A stretch of DNA of 64,000 nucleotides from Cytophagaceae bacterium (GTDB taxonomy: Bacteria > Bacteroidota > Bacteroidia > Cytophagales > Flexibacteraceae), in the NCBI GenBank assembly GCA_027490155.1, contig JAIXYP010000009.1, forward strand, positions 186,001-250,000, given 5' to 3'. The translations under genes and the position numbers were made by a program. This document shows positions 10,662 to 16,625 of this stretch, in pieces. Numbering within the stretch: the stretch's first letter is position 1; every line of letters begins with the position of its first letter. Under the pieces are notes generated by a model, which was given only the letters and a program-made list of their open reading frames with translations, ran no database searches and was not told the origin of the DNA.

Positions 10662-10712
10662 TTGATCTGTTTAACAGTAAACTCAATACGTATGTCAGAG
10701 ATTAGATAAATC

Positions 10713-10740
10713 AAAAAAGGGAGCCTAGGCTCCCTTTTTT
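10713..10740. terminator. Bidirectional intrinsic terminator (perfect 28-bp palindrome)
   Basis: The 28 bases form a perfect palindrome: six A, GGGAGCC, GGCTCCC and six T around a TA centre. It lies between the convergent ABC-F and DUF6807 genes and can serve both strands. Confidence 0.9.
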
Positions 10741-10784
10741 GTTACTGGCAATGCTGATATGAGCGACCTTAATCAGATTTATGG

Positions 10785-11861
10785 CTAGTTGTTTTCGACC
10801 GTGATGGTGAATTTGAAGGTCCTAGATTGGCCCTTCCGGAGTTGAAAATCAAGGCGTTTGGCACCATTGCTAAATACTGCCTCACCAAGCGGATTGGCAG
10901 AAAACAAGCCGTATCCACGAGCATGCCAATAGGTAGGTGACCCCGGATTTTTGGCATCATCACTGATAGTGACAGCCGTTGATTTGCCCTTGATTTGACC
11001 AGCCATCTTTACCCAGTTGGCCCGTGTACCCCAGACGCTATCACCTTTGACACCTGCACTACTTATATACCGACCTGTGACACCCTCGTTGTTTAGGACT
11101 GGGACAGAAGTAGCTACACCTTGCGCATCGGTATAGACCTCTGGCTTTAGTGATGGTTGCTCAAGCTCACGGCATAGCCGAAGCGCAAACATGCCTTCCT
11201 TGTTGTCACGGAAAAGTACTGGTCCATTGACAGCTGTCAGGACAGAGCTGCGGGTGATGGTATATTTTGAGGCAGTTACCTTGGTGAACACAAATGTTGC
11301 ACGTTCGATCAGCATTGGTTTGCCATACTTGTCTAGCCAATCAGCATCGATGACCAAAGTACCTTTCGCAGCACCACCTGTGCAGGACTCTACTTTACGG
11401 TGGACAATCTTGCCAAATGGCCCTTTGTGTTCTGGGCCAATGTGATTGCTATTGTTCCAGAAGTCATGCCCATTAACGTCGCCATGGTTGAACCAGTGAC
11501 CCACATGATGCGGATGATCAATACGCTCACCTGACCTTGGGGCCATTGGCCAGCCTCTTGTGATAGGCTCACCTGCTGGCGAATAGATTGGCCACAAAAC
11601 TGGTTTATAGACAGAGTCCACCCAACGATAGCTCGTGAAAGCTTTGCCGTCGATAGTGACATCTACTCTATTGGCATTTGCTACATTTAACACCTTAACG
11701 CCTGATTTTGCTTTAGGCTTGGTATCTAAGCTCTTGACTTTTCCAGATTTGTGTATATCAGCTCCTTTATCCAGAACCAGGCTGGAGGTAGCTAAGGCTT
11801 GCAGCCCGACTGACAAGCACGCCACTAGCGCACCAGTTTTAATGATGGTTTTGATCTGCAT
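10785..11861 (-). CDS. DUF6807 (PmoA-like) family protein, secreted
   Basis: 358 aa with an N-terminal signal peptide (hydrophobic residues about 8-24, ending ALATSS). The body matches the family annotated PmoA/DUF6807, with its conserved histidine-rich segment RIDHPHHVGHWFNHGDVNGHDFW (given here as a description of residues about 92-115; key residues are the three His around HPHHVGH). Despite the name there is no evidence for methane monooxygenase activity. Its start codon overlaps the stop of the upstream oxidoreductase gene by one base (TAATG at 11859-11863 on the minus strand), so the two are probably translationally coupled. Members of this family often sit with Gfo/Idh/MocA and DUF1080 genes, as here, suggesting a role in periplasmic sugar-derivative breakdown (inference). 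Confidence 0.82.
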   Translation of the reverse strand: MQIKTIIKTGALVACLSVGLQALATSSLVLDKGADIHKSGKVKSLDTKPKAKSGVKVLNVANANRVDVTIDGKAFTSYRWVDSVYKPVLWPIYSPAGEPITRGWPMAPRSGERIDHPHHVGHWFNHGDVNGHDFWNNSNHIGPEHKGPFGKIVHRKVESCTGGAAKGTLVIDADWLDKYGKPMLIERATFVFTKVTASKYTITRSSVLTAVNGPVLFRDNKEGMFALRLCRELEQPSLKPEVYTDAQGVATSVPVLNNEGVTGRYISSAGVKGDSVWGTRANWVKMAGQIKGKSTAVTISDDAKNPGSPTYWHARGYGLFSANPLGEAVFSNGAKRLDFQLRKGQSRTFKFTITVENN

Positions 11862-13258
11862 TATCCGACGACGACCTCCTGACGTTTACTATCAAAGGTG
11901 ATCTTTTTGCCGGTCTCGAGCGCCTTGATTACCATACAAAGAGCCACAGAGTGCTGATAACCTGCTTTAACGTTGGCATTTGGTTGTTTACGGCTTCTGA
12001 TACACTCCATCCAGTTACGGACGTGGGCACTTGTGCTTGGGTCTGCACCTGTGTTGGCAGAGGCGACTACTTTGGTTGCTTCGGCCAATGATTTTTCAGG
12101 CAAAAGAAATGGCTTGAGGCCCATCGCTTTGGCATGTCCTTCATTAAGACCACCATTGTCATTGATGGTATTGGTCTCGAGGTTGAGCATACCGCCTTTG
12201 CTGTAATAATACTCCTTGATGCCACCAGCACTATTGCCCATTCGGCTGCTATAGATCACTTGAAACCCAGACTTCAGGTCCGGGGTGCCATAGTCAAAGA
12301 CAGCAGTCATGGTGTCAAAGTTGCGACGGCCATCGTTCCAAGAATAGATACCACCGTTGGCTACGACCGAACGAGGTGCTTCAAGGCCTGTAAACCAGTG
12401 GACCGTATCGATTTGGTGCACCATCCATTGGTCAGGGATGCCAGAGCTATATGGCCAGAACAAACGATACTCCAGGTATTTACGTGGGTCAAATGCCTCA
12501 TAAGGTCGGTTGAGCAAATAGCGTTTCCAGTCGAGGTCGGCCTCTTTGCATTTGGCCACCAAGTCAGGCCTGCGCCAACGCCCTGGTTGGTTAACGTTCC
12601 AAGTCAGCTCGATCATGTTGATGTCGCCAAACTCACCCGTCTTAAGGTATTCGTTTGCCTGGATGTAGTTAGAGGTACTGCGACGTTGCGTACCGATCTG
12701 GACGATGCGGCTACTTTCATTGACCGCTTTCAAGATCGCTTTGGCATCCTCCATGGTGTTCGCCATTGGCTTTTCGACGTAGGCATCGCGACCTGCCTTA
12801 ACGGCTTCTATGCCGTGCAGAGCATGCTGAAAGTCCGCAGTAGCGATAATGACAGCATCTACTTTGGTTTTGTCGTATAACTCCTCGTTGTTGCGAGCTA
12901 CATAGATCGAGTTGCCAGTTTTTTCCTTAAGCCAAGCGGCACCTTCTTCCCTTCGCAGGCTCCAGATATCGGACATGGCAACAATCTCCATGTTTAGCTC
13001 CTTGTTGTGCTGCATAAAACACGGGATCAATGAACCCTTGCTACGGTCTGCAAAGCCAACAATTCCGACTTGAACTCTGTCGTTAGCCCCAATGATCCTT
13101 GCATAGGATTTGGCACTCATACCCACTGCGAGTCCAGCCCCAGCCATTGCTACCTGTTTAATAAACTGGCGGCGACCATCTTCTGGTGTATGCTTCAAGG
13201 CCTCTGACAACGTTGTCGATGTGTCAATTTGCCCAAGGGGCAGCTGTTGAGATTCCAT
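11861..13258 (-). CDS. Gfo/Idh/MocA family oxidoreductase with Tat-type signal
   Basis: NAD(P)-dependent sugar or polyol oxidoreductase family, 465 aa. The N-terminus carries a twin-arginine motif (RRQFIKQ, 29-35) followed by a hydrophobic stretch AMAGAGLAVG, so it is probably exported folded to the periplasm. The Rossmann region is VQVGIVGFADRSKG, slightly unusual, and the conserved EKP (162-164, in YVEKPMANT) is present. Export with a bound nucleotide is known for related enzymes such as glucose-fructose oxidoreductase. It lies between a DUF1080 gene and a DUF6807 gene, all minus strand and closely spaced. Likely oxidises a glycoside or sugar acid; substrate unknown. Confidence 0.88.
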   Translation of the reverse strand: MESQQLPLGQIDTSTTLSEALKHTPEDGRRQFIKQVAMAGAGLAVGMSAKSYARIIGANDRVQVGIVGFADRSKGSLIPCFMQHNKELNMEIVAMSDIWSLRREEGAAWLKEKTGNSIYVARNNEELYDKTKVDAVIIATADFQHALHGIEAVKAGRDAYVEKPMANTMEDAKAILKAVNESSRIVQIGTQRRSTSNYIQANEYLKTGEFGDINMIELTWNVNQPGRWRRPDLVAKCKEADLDWKRYLLNRPYEAFDPRKYLEYRLFWPYSSGIPDQWMVHQIDTVHWFTGLEAPRSVVANGGIYSWNDGRRNFDTMTAVFDYGTPDLKSGFQVIYSSRMGNSAGGIKEYYYSKGGMLNLETNTINDNGGLNEGHAKAMGLKPFLLPEKSLAEATKVVASANTGADPSTSAHVRNWMECIRSRKQPNANVKAGYQHSVALCMVIKALETGKKITFDSKRQEVVVG

Positions 13259-13343
13259 TCTTTTTCTAAAACGTTGGTGATAGGTACGTGCGTATTTGGG
13301 TTGGCACTATTTGATGGTTGATTTCTTATACTGATAGAGGGTG

Positions 13344-14186
13344 CTAGTTGATCTCTTTGATCTTGATGTTGCGGAACTTAACCAAATCACCATGATCTTG
13401 CAAAAGGATATGCCCCACAGGGCTTTCGCCAAAATCTGTGATGTCCTTGTATTTGGAGCCTGCCACCAATACCTTCCAGGCCTCGTTGTTGCGGGTGTAA
13501 GCCACCACTTTACTGCCATTAAGCCAGTGTTCGACCTCGTTTCCTTTGACGACCAACCGAGCATGGTTCCACTGGCCAGGAGGATTAGGGGATTTATTCG
13601 AAGCCGTGATCAAGTCATAGAGACTACCGATTGTGCGGTTGCCGTCTTTACCTTTTTTAGCGTCTGGGTGGCGCTCGTCATCCAATATCTGGAACTCACA
13701 GCCGATGGCAGAGCCCTTTGGGCGTGGTTGGCGCTCCAACACAAAATATTTGATCCCACTATTCCCACCCTCGCTGACGTTGAAGTCCAGCTCAAGTTCA
13801 AAGTTGCGGTACTGCTTTTCGGTGATGATGTCGCCCCCACTGTTACTTTCGCCACCTTTGCTAGCTTTATGGATCAGGCATCCTTCCTGCACTACCCATC
13901 CACTATCTGGGAAGGCTGTCTTGTAGACACCACGCCATCCTTTGGAGGTACTACCGTCAAACAAGGATACCCATCCTGCCTTGCGCTCCGCCTTGGTGAG
14001 TTTGTTAGGCGCTTGAACAACTTGGGGTTTTGCCTCCTTTTGTTGCCCCTTTTGGGCAAAGGCTGGCATGCCTAATGTGCTGAGTAACGCTAATGAAGCG
14101 AGGAGCATTCCTGCCCATTGAGCTGATGCTTGAGATGCTGTTTTTTTCTTGAGGATGCGAGTGGCAAGTCCTGTCGTCATGATCAA
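13344..14186 (-). CDS. DUF1080 family protein (3-keto-disaccharide hydrolase type), secreted
   Basis: 280 aa. A basic start and a hydrophobic segment (about 24-44, ending MPAFAQ) form a signal peptide. The rest is a concanavalin/LamG-like beta-sandwich of the DUF1080 family; its usual opening motif appears as GWVSLFDGSTSKGWRG, followed by GGDIITEKQYRNFELELDF and SGIKYFV. The family is linked to cleavage of 3-keto-glycosides. It is the first gene of a three-gene minus-strand group; the gap to the oxidoreductase gene is 85 bp. Together they fit a pathway in which a glycoside is oxidised at C3 and then cleaved (inference from family knowledge). Confidence 0.87.
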   Translation of the reverse strand: MIMTTGLATRILKKKTASQASAQWAGMLLASLALLSTLGMPAFAQKGQQKEAKPQVVQAPNKLTKAERKAGWVSLFDGSTSKGWRGVYKTAFPDSGWVVQEGCLIHKASKGGESNSGGDIITEKQYRNFELELDFNVSEGGNSGIKYFVLERQPRPKGSAIGCEFQILDDERHPDAKKGKDGNRTIGSLYDLITASNKSPNPPGQWNHARLVVKGNEVEHWLNGSKVVAYTRNNEAWKVLVAGSKYKDITDFGESPVGHILLQDHGDLVKFRNIKIKEIN

Positions 14187-14406
14187 AATTGTGTGTTTAT
14201 TTTCTAAAGCTGTGGCAACTTAGTGATATTGGGCGGAAGGGCAAAATCCATAGCACCAGAGGCCAAACAAACTAGATCAATCAATAAAAAGGCGGCTAGA
14301 TACTGACCTAAATCCACAACCAATTAGGCCAAAATGTTAACCTGATCACTCAAGGCCTACAATAGAGCCCAACCACAATACCCTCAAAACCCATTACTTT
14401 GCACCC

Positions 14407-15075
14407 ATGCAATACTTGATCATTGGCCTTGGCAACATAGGCCCGGAGTACGAACGCACACGGCATAACATCGGCTTCATGGTGCTAGATAGGCTTGTGG
14501 CCAAACAAGGTAGTGAGCAGTTCAAGCTTGACAAGCAGGCCTTCTTTGCCCGCACCATGCATAAGGGCCGCATCCTGAACCTGATCAAGCCTACTACTTA
14601 TATGAACCTTAGTGGAAAGGCCGTTCGCTTCTGGATGCAGCACCTAAAGATCCCGAAAGAAAACATATTGGTAATCACCGACGACCTCGCAATACCATAC
14701 GGCGTCCTACGCCTCAAGGGAAAAGGCAGCGGCGGCGGGCACAATGGCCTAGGTAATATTCAGGAGGTGCTAAACTCGACCGAATATCCAAGGCTCAGGT
14801 TTGGCATCGGTGATAAGTTTGCGCAAGGCAAACAGATCGACTATGTATTGGGCAATTTCAGTATCGAGGAGCAACAAGACCTAGAACTCAATATTGAGCG
14901 GTCAGTGGATGCCGTTTTTCAGTTCTGTAGTATCGGCCTCGAGCGGGCTATGAACGTCGTGAACACCAAAGAACAAAAGGAACCGAAGCCATCTAAAGAG
15001 CCAAAGGTACCAAAATCACCAAAAGATGCCCAAAACGAGGCAATATCTGGCCAATCGGGCGAACCGCAGGCCTAA
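14407..15075 (+). CDS. pth: Peptidyl-tRNA hydrolase with charged C-terminal tail
   Basis: Releases tRNA from prematurely dropped peptidyl-tRNA in the cytoplasm. 222 aa, against about 190 for a typical Pth. Active-site residues sit at standard positions: N10 and H20 (IGLGNIGPEYERTRHNIGF), N67 in KPTTYMNLSG, and D93 in TDDL. Residues about 190-222 form a Lys/Pro/Glu-rich tail (KPSKEPKVPKSPK) outside the conserved fold, likely disordered. The sequence TTACTTTGC just before the ATG resembles a Bacteroidota -7 promoter element but is one base short of consensus. The gene separates the MFS permease from the rest of the sugar cluster. Confidence 0.95.
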   Translation: MQYLIIGLGNIGPEYERTRHNIGFMVLDRLVAKQGSEQFKLDKQAFFARTMHKGRILNLIKPTTYMNLSGKAVRFWMQHLKIPKENILVITDDLAIPYGVLRLKGKGSGGGHNGLGNIQEVLNSTEYPRLRFGIGDKFAQGKQIDYVLGNFSIEEQQDLELNIERSVDAVFQFCSIGLERAMNVVNTKEQKEPKPSKEPKVPKSPKDAQNEAISGQSGEPQA

Positions 15076-15097
15076 ATTACTCAACTCATCAGGCATA

Positions 15098-15132
15098 CAA
15101 AAGCCCATCTTCATAGATGGGCTTTTGTGTTT
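15098..15132. terminator. Terminator between pth and MFS gene (bidirectional)
   Basis: A perfect 13-bp stem (15098-15110 with 15115-15127) has a 4-nt TCAT loop and an A/T-rich tract on both sides. It is suited to terminate both convergent genes. Confidence 0.88.
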
Positions 15133-15152
15133 TTAGGACCAAGACTTTCTAC

Positions 15153-16403
15153 CTAGTGACTAGCCCCCGCACCAATTGACTTGCGGCTAAAGTACAGGAT
15201 GGCAAAGATGACACCTAGTACTACTGGCAACAAGGCAACCTCAGTAAGGGTGGTTTGGCCAGCAATAAGGCCAGCTTGGTCGGCAAGGTCGGCCATGTTG
15301 ACATCAGCTCCTTTTTCAAGGGTCGAAAGTGCCTTCTCCTTGTTAGCTGCATATAGACTCCCCATAAATGGTAGGACGATTGACACAGACAACATCCCTG
15401 CCCCTCCCATGATACTCATACCTAGCGCACCAGACTGTGGGATATACTCGCTCACAAAGCCAATCATGGTTGGCCAGAAGTAACATACACCAACAGCAAA
15501 TACGGCAGCACCTGGCCATACGTACCCAGAACCAAGTAGCACCAAACCAATTGCTGAAAAAATAGCGGAAAACAACAGCATACCCGTCGGCGCTAGGCTA
15601 TGGACCATCGTGCCGGCAAAGCCTCGACCAAGGGCCATGATGCCACTGATGAACACTAGGACTAAAATCGGATTCGAGACCTGTTGTTCTAGCAAAACAT
15701 TGATCCACTGGCCAGTCCCCAGCTCAGTCGCAGAGGTCAACAACATACAGAATACCATCACCAGAAATAAGGGGCTAAGGCAAGACTTCAGCATTGACCC
15801 CTCGGACACACCAGATGTAACCCGTTCCGTTTTGATAAAGGTTTGACCCAAGAAAAGAGCACCATAAATCAGGGTCGGCAACAGGATAGCGGCCATTTGC
15901 CACTCCCAGCTCAATGTCAACTCCTTCTCAATCAGATAGCCTGTTAACCCACCTATAACGATACCGCCTGGGAACCAGAGGTGAAATCTATTAAGCATCG
16001 TCGTTTTGTTGTCTGGGAACATACTTGCCACCATCGGGTTGCAAGCGGCCTCGACCATTCCGTTAGCGATACCAACAAACAACGTACTGATGAACAAGGA
16101 CCAAAAGCCCGTTGCTACCATTGTCAACCCAATGCCAATCAAGTGACCAGAAAAGGCCAACCAGATCAGTAATTTCATCCCGAGTCGATCAACCAAGAAG
16201 CCACCAAAAATCATTGCCAACGTAAAGCCCCAAAAGGCAGTCCCTGCACATAGGCCTACCTCAAAGTTATCGAGCTTAAAATCCTCGCCCAACTTGTTAA
16301 GGATATTGGCCCGGATTGCAAAGGTCATTGCGGTCGTAATCAACGCCACACAACTTGCGACAAACAAGCGGTTCCGGTTGATCGATGGTGATGCAGTTGT
16401 CAT
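15153..16403 (-). CDS. MFS sugar permease
   Basis: Inner-membrane major facilitator superfamily transporter, 416 aa with about twelve hydrophobic segments. The MFS loop motif between TM2 and TM3 appears as GGFLVDRLGMKLL. N-terminal TM helices (ALITTAMTFAIRANIL, GLCAGTAFWGFTLAM) and MVEAACNPMVASMFP resemble Bacteroidota sugar permeases found with Gfo/Idh/MocA genes. It is on the same strand as the DUF1080/oxidoreductase/DUF6807 group but separated by pth on the other strand, so it has its own promoter (TTG-N20-TAAGTTTG at 16488-16518). Substrate not determinable; a glycoside or its oxidised product is a reasonable guess. Confidence 0.88.
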   Translation of the reverse strand: MTTASPSINRNRLFVASCVALITTAMTFAIRANILNKLGEDFKLDNFEVGLCAGTAFWGFTLAMIFGGFLVDRLGMKLLIWLAFSGHLIGIGLTMVATGFWSLFISTLFVGIANGMVEAACNPMVASMFPDNKTTMLNRFHLWFPGGIVIGGLTGYLIEKELTLSWEWQMAAILLPTLIYGALFLGQTFIKTERVTSGVSEGSMLKSCLSPLFLVMVFCMLLTSATELGTGQWINVLLEQQVSNPILVLVFISGIMALGRGFAGTMVHSLAPTGMLLFSAIFSAIGLVLLGSGYVWPGAAVFAVGVCYFWPTMIGFVSEYIPQSGALGMSIMGGAGMLSVSIVLPFMGSLYAANKEKALSTLEKGADVNMADLADQAGLIAGQTTLTEVALLPVVLGVIFAILYFSRKSIGAGASH

Positions 16404-16487
16404 CTAAAGTCTGGTAATGGTGATTTTGGAGGTAAGAAAACACTAGACACCTCATACCAGTTGACTGGCAAAGGCCCACAGTTTTGC

Positions 16488-16518
16488 CAAACTTATCAAT
16501 TCGGCATGGTTATGGCAA
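16488..16518 (-). promoter_or_regulatory. Predicted promoter of the MFS permease gene
   Basis: On the minus strand TTG (16518-16516), a 20-bp spacer and TAAGTTTG (16495-16488) match the Bacteroidota sigma-A consensus TTG / TAnnTTTG. The leader to the ATG at 16403 would be about 75-80 nt. Confidence 0.55.
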
Positions 16519-16625
16519 CTTTTGATGCCGAAACTATCCATTTCCTTTGTTTACTTGGCACTTGCCAAACGACAAGCTCACACTCAAGGTCCAAAACCAG
16601 CCGACATCCCAAAATTATAAAGCCT

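Follow-up and report, generated by a model that had tools for sequence, protein, structure and literature searches.

The window analysed here, a stretch of 64,000 nucleotides from a Cytophagaceae bacterium (contig JAIXYP010000009.1, positions 186,001 to 250,000), carries three neighbouring minus-strand genes that encode a DUF1080 protein, an oxidoreductase of the Gfo/Idh/MocA superfamily (Gfo) with a twin-arginine translocation (Tat) motif, and a DUF6807 protein. This group appears to be a real and conserved sugar-oxidation module that is probably exported. From its comparative context, we consider it reasonably probable that the module acts in the periplasm on 3-keto-glycosides, by the stepwise mechanism described below. 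More tentatively, we propose that DUF6807 is an unrecognised exported family that would convert the 3-keto-glycoside or 3-keto-sugar produced by one Tat-exported Gfo clade, with a mutarotase-like fold and a putative active site of the form D-H-P-H-H-x-G-x-W ... N-G-x-D-F-W-N-N, and that it may replace DUF1080 in several lineages, also beyond Bacteroidota (Pyrinomonadaceae and Gemmatimonadetes contigs).

How are these genes held together? The Gfo and DUF6807 genes share a single base in a TAATG overlap, read directly in the sequence (...GGATAATGCAG...), and 85 bases separate DUF1080 from Gfo. An earlier sequence-only reading of the window had proposed this grouping and this coupling; its gene identities, strands and coordinates were borne out by profile scans against Pfam and NCBIfam, and the overlap by inspection of the sequence. 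A sister-species record (L019, a Cytophagaceae metagenome-assembled genome, MAG) has the order DUF1080-Gfo-DUF6807-ABCF-fabI, with a DUF6807 match of 89 percent, and contig L123 of the sister species G001 keeps the order serC-aroQ-MFS-pth-DUF1080, which includes the permease (MFS) and peptidyl-tRNA hydrolase (pth) genes found beyond the group in the window. A terminator-like hairpin of 13 pairs lies directly 3′ of DUF6807; the region holds eight terminator-like sites (6.3 expected by chance), the others having 5-7 pairs.

The linkage was then assessed across genomes, with Gfo as the anchor. Among 395 Bacteroidota genomes, the Gfo clade (E <= 1e-100) was represented by 29 copies in 28 genomes, the window included, and partners were counted on the same strand within 2.5 kb. 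DUF1080 was present at 16 of the 29 loci and DUF6807 at 12, with at least one of them at 25; DUF1080 alone was found at 13, DUF6807 alone at nine, both at three and neither at four. Genome G547 has two Gfo copies, one beside DUF6807 and the other beside DUF1080. Because of this partition, and of the two copies in G547, the two families look partly interchangeable as Gfo partners. Fisher's test for their mutual avoidance gave 0.0095 over the 29 loci, and 0.026 if a divergent DUF6807 gene in G636 is counted, a variant chosen post hoc. These data are suggestive, and not proof, that DUF6807 is a second Gfo partner that may partly replace DUF1080.

The second sample, anchored on DUF6807, consists of 80 loci from named genomes, selected by similarity as the top 80 of at least 506; Spirosoma and Algoriphagus dominate, and some loci end at contig ends. 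Features were counted by tblastn, with matches of at least 350 bits taken as the Gfo clade. A Gfo gene of this clade adjoins DUF6807 on the same strand at 34 of the 80 loci, in 22 of 37 genus-level groups (assigned from record titles, with each unnamed MAG as its own group), and lies within 10 kb at 46; TIM barrels of three query types occur at 39. The sequence-only reading had pointed to conserved proximity of DUF6807 and DUF1080 as a check. Some DUF1080 gene does lie within 10 kb of DUF6807 at 33 of the 80 loci. The arrangements vary: G014 (L118) has the order TIM barrel-DUF1080-Gfo-DUF6807, and DUF1080 and DUF6807 co-occur in Larkinella and several other Cytophagales. In the Spirosoma group (13 Spirosoma, one Fibrisoma and one Spirosomataceae MAG), nine of 15 loci have a DUF1080-Gfo pair on the other strand, 4.4-8.1 kb from DUF6807, and no such pair was found in the flank of the remaining six; at the four fully listed loci, a third gene with a twin-arginine start precedes the pair. 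Outside the phylum, two Gemmatimonadetes and two Pyrinomonas/Pyrinomonadaceae contigs, so named by title and partly short, have Gfo-DUF6807 with no DUF1080 match, and in one further Gemmatimonadetes contig DUF1080 occurs with a Gfo that scores lower (138 bits). Of the 247 genomes in a class sample, 11 carry the Gfo clade (E <= 1e-60), eight carry DUF6807 and six carry both (hypergeometric 4e-8, uncorrected for kinship).

The oxidoreductase itself is a probable glycoside dehydrogenase. First, it belongs to the superfamily, scoring above the cut-offs of both PF01408 (56.1 bits) and PF19051. Second, its EKP motif (residues 162-164) and D284-x-x-H287 are invariant in alignment A6, which combines the window Gfo with 24 of 35 suitable Gfo proteins; in a separate count based on open reading frames (ORFs; 78 for DUF6807 and 42 for Gfo), EKP occurs in all 42 close relatives and D/E..H[WF] in 38. 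The ORF caller was greedy, and shadow ORFs masked DUF6807 at two of the 80 loci and the permease in L165, where it was placed by other searches. Third, the closest solved structures by phmmer are 8tdh and 8tdf, the latter titled as the Alistipes glucoside-3-dehydrogenase AL3, and in a profile search only 3ec7, a putative dehydrogenase, ranked above them, which left them in second and third place. The predicted Gfo model (pLDDT 76) matches many Gfo structures at Z 26.7-29.8 among the 50 matches listed, including anhydrofructose reductase, DgpA, WlbA, levoglucosan dehydrogenase, oxidoreductive sulfoquinovosidase, glucuronide-3-dehydrogenase, glucose-fructose oxidoreductase (GFOR) and AL3; this points to the superfamily rather than to the reaction. 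GFOR raises the alternative that the window Gfo is a periplasmic enzyme of that type, making a lactone and a polyol, with incidental neighbours. GFOR is a Tat-exported Gfo with a bound cofactor, and the Zymomonas GFOR and the Caulobacter aldose-aldose oxidoreductase match the model at Z 27.2; the linkage to DUF1080 or DUF6807 at 25 of 29 loci is nevertheless hard to ascribe to chance, and we regard this alternative as very unlikely.

The export of the module is suggested by its N termini. In Gfo, the Tat motif RRQFIK occupies residues 29-34, and RR.F[ILVMF] is found near the N terminus of 38 of 42 close relatives; in our judgement, the other four look like misplaced starts or truncated gene calls. 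A TatC gene (PF00902, 227 bits) is present in another stretch of the same genome (L129). As judged by eye, both DUF1080 and DUF6807 begin with a hydrophobic Sec-type stretch, and among 78 DUF6807 relatives a simple rule, which is not SignalP, found 73 with a hydrophobic 11-mer close to the N terminus and 12 with a lipobox. The two Sec-type signals and one Tat-type signal of the sequence-only reading are therefore present as motifs, but at E 0.001 the window Gfo was not picked up by TIGR01409, the Tat model of NCBIfam.

The DUF1080 protein covers its whole family profile (PF06439, 172.6 bits against a cut-off of 26.8, profile positions 1-187 of 187). Of its two candidate starts, the ATG at 14180 is preferred to the in-frame upstream TTG at 14186, because the sister species has ACC at the TTG position and retains the ATG. 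Its phmmer matches among solved structures are 4jqt (E 2e-87) and 8tda/8tde (E 7e-42), and 8rr2, named by its depositors as a 3-keto-disaccharide hydrolase domain-containing protein, is among the closest solved relatives. According to PMC9007349, one DUF1080 protein is a 3-ketotrehalose hydrolase and another has been proposed as a periplasmic 3′-ketolactose hydrolase. The window protein is thus predicted to be exported and 3-keto-disaccharide hydrolase-like.

What might DUF6807 do? The protein is a clear member of PF14100 (225.5 bits, cut-off 27), the only family reported for it in a Pfam scan at E 0.001. Comparison with the Protein Data Bank (PDB) gave a best E of 0.17 by sequence and 0.37 by profile, and PHROGs contained no match for DUF6807 or DUF1080; a search of viral contigs for DUF6807 relatives gave 40 pattern matches, none of which was confirmed. 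Such negative results do not prove absence. An AlphaFold2 model was built from alignment A3, with 44 of the 53 listed sequences (nine were left out, including L095, which has a stop codon). Its pLDDT is 83 overall; when the chain from residue 51 onwards is divided into 31 blocks of ten residues, 26 of them average at least 85. The best structural alignment (VIA-align) is to the galactose mutarotase GalM, 4bze (Z 17.3, rmsd 3.8 over 239 residues), followed at Z 15-16 by beta-galactosidase C-terminal domains, a PL26 lyase and GH97 enzymes; Foldseek also ranks galactose mutarotases first (E 1.8e-5 to 3.3e-5), with TM scores by query length of 0.28-0.39 for the top five. The predicted fold is accordingly galactose-mutarotase-like. 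Invariant or nearly invariant residues are D115-H116-P117-H118-H119-x-G121-x-W123, N130, D133-F134-W135-N136-N137 and W312-H313-x-R315-G-Y-G, and the HH pair, which L013 has lost, persists in L014 and L015, both of them distant members; this cluster may form the active site. The sequence-only reading had assigned DUF6807 no role, and to this a predicted fold and a recurrent partner can now be added, whereas its reaction we can only infer.

This fold suggests a simpler function, in which DUF6807 would be a mutarotase-like accessory that exchanges the anomers of a free or 3-keto sugar for Gfo or for a permease, and DUF1080 would cleave alone. The nearest structural matches are in keeping with this idea, but the TM scores are low, hhalign gave a probability of only 0.1-0.6 percent for a relation to PF01263 and aldose epimerases (two epimerase sets), hydrolases and lyases share the same fold, and at nine of the 29 Gfo loci DUF6807 accompanies Gfo without DUF1080. 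We find this explanation rather doubtful, and a plain GalM was set aside because no sequence signal was seen. The older label of PF14100 as a methane oxygenase was also set aside, in view of the mutarotase-like predicted fold and the sugar-related context. Our literature search, from which subscription papers were mostly outside coverage, found no paper giving DUF6807 a function. PMC10971088 names it as the highest DUF number, PMC5342196 describes, from a Lac+ soil cosmid, a PF14100 'methane oxygenase' that may share an operon with two reported beta-galactosidases, and the metatranscriptome study PMC10291797 used PF14100 as a PmoA marker. Because PF14100 proteins look exported and sugar-related, the PmoA counts of the last study may be misassigned.

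We therefore return to the 3-keto-glycoside module, for which we envisage the following steps. A Tat-exported enzyme of the NAD type should bring its own cofactor, as established for GFOR. Gfo would fold in the cytoplasm, with a nicotinamide cofactor tightly bound, before export; it would then oxidise a sugar ring, most probably at C3, in a glycoside or a disaccharide. The keto-glycoside would then be cleaved by DUF1080. DUF6807 would act on the same keto-glycoside or on the released keto-sugar; we prefer to see it as a second, alternative enzyme of galactose-mutarotase-like fold that would cleave or isomerise, in partial replacement of DUF1080. Finally, either the same Gfo would reduce the keto-sugar and so renew its bound cofactor, a closed cycle that needs no free cofactor, or the MFS permease would import the keto-sugar for reduction by a signal-less and presumably cytoplasmic Gfo (C27) together with a xylose-isomerase-like TIM barrel (C25). 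Oxidation and cleavage outside the cytoplasm followed by uptake had been the suggestion of the sequence-only reading; the recurrent linkage of Gfo with DUF1080 and DUF6807 and the export-type signals agree with its first part, but the permease does not accompany DUF6807 at the 80 loci, as described next.

Several observations weigh against this interpretation. The mutual avoidance of DUF1080 and DUF6807 weakens to p = 0.08 on 22 genus-collapsed loci, which were collapsed by hand from genus labels. Four of the 29 Gfo loci have neither partner on the same strand, and of the 80 DUF6807 loci, 18 lack any counted feature and 13 lack any tblastn match. The window Gfo falls far below the cut-offs of the two relevant NCBIfam families, with 78 bits against 750 for BT_2158_fam (glycoside 3-dehydrogenase) and 33.7 against 650 for BT_2159_fam (disaccharide 3-dehydrogenase), and its predicted fold matches many Gfo enzymes of differing function with nearly tied Z scores. 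MFS was found near DUF6807 at none of the 80 loci. As reported in PMC11501099, transposon data had indicated fitness defects for the BT2157/BT2158 cluster, and single deletion of BT2157 or BT2158 caused no growth defect on raffinose-family sugars.

The four partnerless loci also bear on the nature of the substrate. At one of them, in G636, DUF6807 lies next to Gfo in divergent orientation. For each of the other three (L210, L215 and L216, of which two come from one genus), the fetched stretch contains UxaC, and L215 is additionally near UxuA, a GMC oxidoreductase and SusD. Pfam confirmed UxaC in L210 and UxuA in L215 and L014. Because UxaC is found at three of the four partnerless loci, uronides are possible substrates in those lineages. 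It might further be supposed that glucuronides or other uronic-acid glycosides are the natural substrates of the module as a whole, with Gfo as a glucuronide dehydrogenase feeding uronate catabolism. In favour of this, when the window is left aside, three of 28 Gfo loci have UxaC and one has UxuA, and among the 80 DUF6807 loci UxuA occurs at four and UxaC at one; glucuronide-3-dehydrogenase 8tdi also matches the Gfo model at Z 27.6. Most loci, however, are without uronate genes, and neither UxaC nor UxuA was found in the window or in ten scanned stretches of the genome, the whole of which was not searched. We consider a general uronate role unlikely.

Features of the locus. Coordinates are those of the window.
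Feature	Position	Strand	Evidence
DUF1080 gene	13344-14180	minus	PF06439, E 1.2e-50
Gfo/Idh/MocA oxidoreductase gene	11861-13258	minus	PF01408, E 7.5e-15
DUF6807 gene	10785-11861	minus	PF14100, E 1.2e-66
Terminator-like hairpin, 13 pairs, directly 3′ of DUF6807	10712-10741	minus	pattern scan
pth, peptidyl-tRNA hydrolase (outside the system)	14407-15075	plus	TIGR00447, 177 bits
MFS permease gene	15153-16403	minus	PF07690, E 7.6e-20, 71.6 bits
Bacteroidota-type promoter string TTG-N20-TAAGTTTG, upstream of MFS	16488-16518	minus	string scan and sister-species comparison
Perfect inverted repeats, possible operator	16466-16472/16483-16489; 16500-16507/16525-16532		sequence scan

Does the MFS permease take part in this process? 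The sequence-only reading had placed it just beyond pth, on the strand of the three-gene group, in a pathway split by pth. Its position and strand were upheld, but because pth runs on the opposite strand, the permease gene is a transcription unit of its own and not the distal part of a split operon; one operon of MFS, pth and the enzymes was thus set aside. The promoter that had been ascribed to it, TTG-N20-TAAGTTTG, follows the Bacteroidota consensus and is conserved in the sister species, but by frequency the string alone is unremarkable (six in the window against 3.4 expected, with a maximum of eight in 50 simulated sequences). It is enclosed in 73 consecutive bases (16457-16529) that are identical in the sister species; the rest of the intergenic stretch differs, and the permease coding sequence has 85 percent identity. 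The two inverted repeats flank the string and fall almost entirely within these 73 bases. Because of this conserved stretch and the two repeats, the second of which differs by one base in the sister species, the permease gene is likely to be separately transcribed and perhaps separately regulated.

That the permease is unrelated to the three-gene group is nearly as credible as not. The intervening pth gene and the absence of MFS from the DUF6807 loci favour this explanation, and among the 29 Gfo loci the window alone has MFS nearby, so that no conserved cluster is seen. In seven other genomes where both were seen (G004, G006, G014, G019, G131, G150 and G163), MFS and DUF6807 are on separate contigs, except in G014, where some 1.9 Mb lies between them, and MFS relatives also occur in other contexts, such as the rhamnose-type genes of L166 (by eye only). 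On the other hand, the arrangement is retained in the sister species, and MFS and DUF6807 co-occur in five of the 247 genomes of the class sample (11 and eight carriers; 3e-6, uncorrected for kinship). In addition, we collected, outside the genus, 17 loci of MFS relatives (E <= 1e-60), excluding weaker matches, the window and the sister species. Seven of these 17 have an adjoining second Gfo, a TIM barrel or both: Gfo and TIM barrel in G006, G223, G242, G150 and G068, Gfo without TIM barrel in G019, and TIM barrel without Gfo in G121. The other ten have neither, and four of these ten are on contigs shorter than 10 kb. Two of the seven also include DUF1080 and LacB-type genes: the G068 cluster goes on to DUF1080, a GMC oxidoreductase and a Gluconate_2-dh3 protein, and near the permease of G150 there are likewise DUF1080 and a Gluconate_2-dh3 protein; both resemble LacABC loci in this. 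Other contigs of the window's genome encode relatives of the MFS-linked Gfo (577 bits, on C27) and of the accompanying TIM barrel (642 bits, on C25). Because MFS relatives sit by genes that have such relatives in this genome, an uptake step is plausible, by an indirect route, and the permease is a possible importer of the released sugar or keto-sugar.

Some related gene rows may be recorded here. In G006, a relative within the family (L120, 4715-10469), MFS is divergent from a row of Gfo, TIM barrel and DUF1080 genes, at the end of which a 368-residue protein resembles GH88/105-type hydrolases by eye only. In the window's own genome, one stretch (C60, L128, 7812-10338) has a twin-arginine TIM barrel (AP_endonuc_2) followed by a twin-arginine Gfo with 96 bits against the BT_2158_fam cut-off of 750. 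In another (C50, L114, 6468-10597), which may represent a further oxidative sugar system, a DUF1080-PA14 protein precedes a protein of 756 residues that ends in a copper-binding domain of the plastocyanin/azurin kind.

The proposed module has likenesses to several known systems. It resembles the BT2157-BT2160 pathway of Bacteroides and Alistipes (8tda, 8tdf and 8tdh) in combining DUF1080 with Gfo, the DUF1080 relatives matching at E 7e-42. It differs from that type in that the window Gfo forms a separate clade, in that one Gfo stands in place of two NCBIfam dehydrogenase families, and in the addition of DUF6807. The lactose pathway of Caulobacter and Pedobacter, with LacABC and DUF1080, is similar in that periplasmic oxidation precedes DUF1080, and a transporter, epimerases and a reductase have been proposed for its keto-sugar (PMC9007349); relatives of the window MFS in clusters with LacB-type genes (L168 and L173) provide a further link. 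The oxidant in the window is, in contrast, Gfo, and the LacB family (PF13618) gave no match in this genome, with positive Caulobacter and Haloferax controls; LacA-type GMC proteins were not searched genome-wide. The levoglucosan pathway, as PMC7676230 describes it, has four enzymes, LgdA, LgdB1, LgdB2 and LgdC, which comprise a dehydrogenase, two proteins with a sugar phosphate isomerase annotation and a reductase of the Gfo type. When NAD is supplied in vitro, they carry out oxidation, elimination, hydration and reduction, whereas the window oxidant is Tat-signalled and cleavage would fall to DUF1080 or DUF6807. The C- and O-glycoside eliminases PuCGE and AtOGE (PMC10628242), with DgpA-type oxidoreductases, share 3-keto-glycoside chemistry, and DgpA and DgpA1 match the window Gfo model at Z 27.8-29.6; those eliminases are, however, TIM barrels and not DUF1080 or DUF6807 proteins. 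With galactose mutarotase (PF01263), DUF6807 shares a predicted fold but no detected sequence relation.

Oxidative cleavage of glycosides via 3-keto intermediates is a recently recognised alternative to the classical glycoside hydrolases. If a Gfo clade with two alternative partners is indeed involved, this would extend 3-keto cleavage and provide a first function for a family misleadingly called PmoA. It would also raise the question of how an NAD-type oxidoreductase operates in the periplasm, where free cofactor is scarce.

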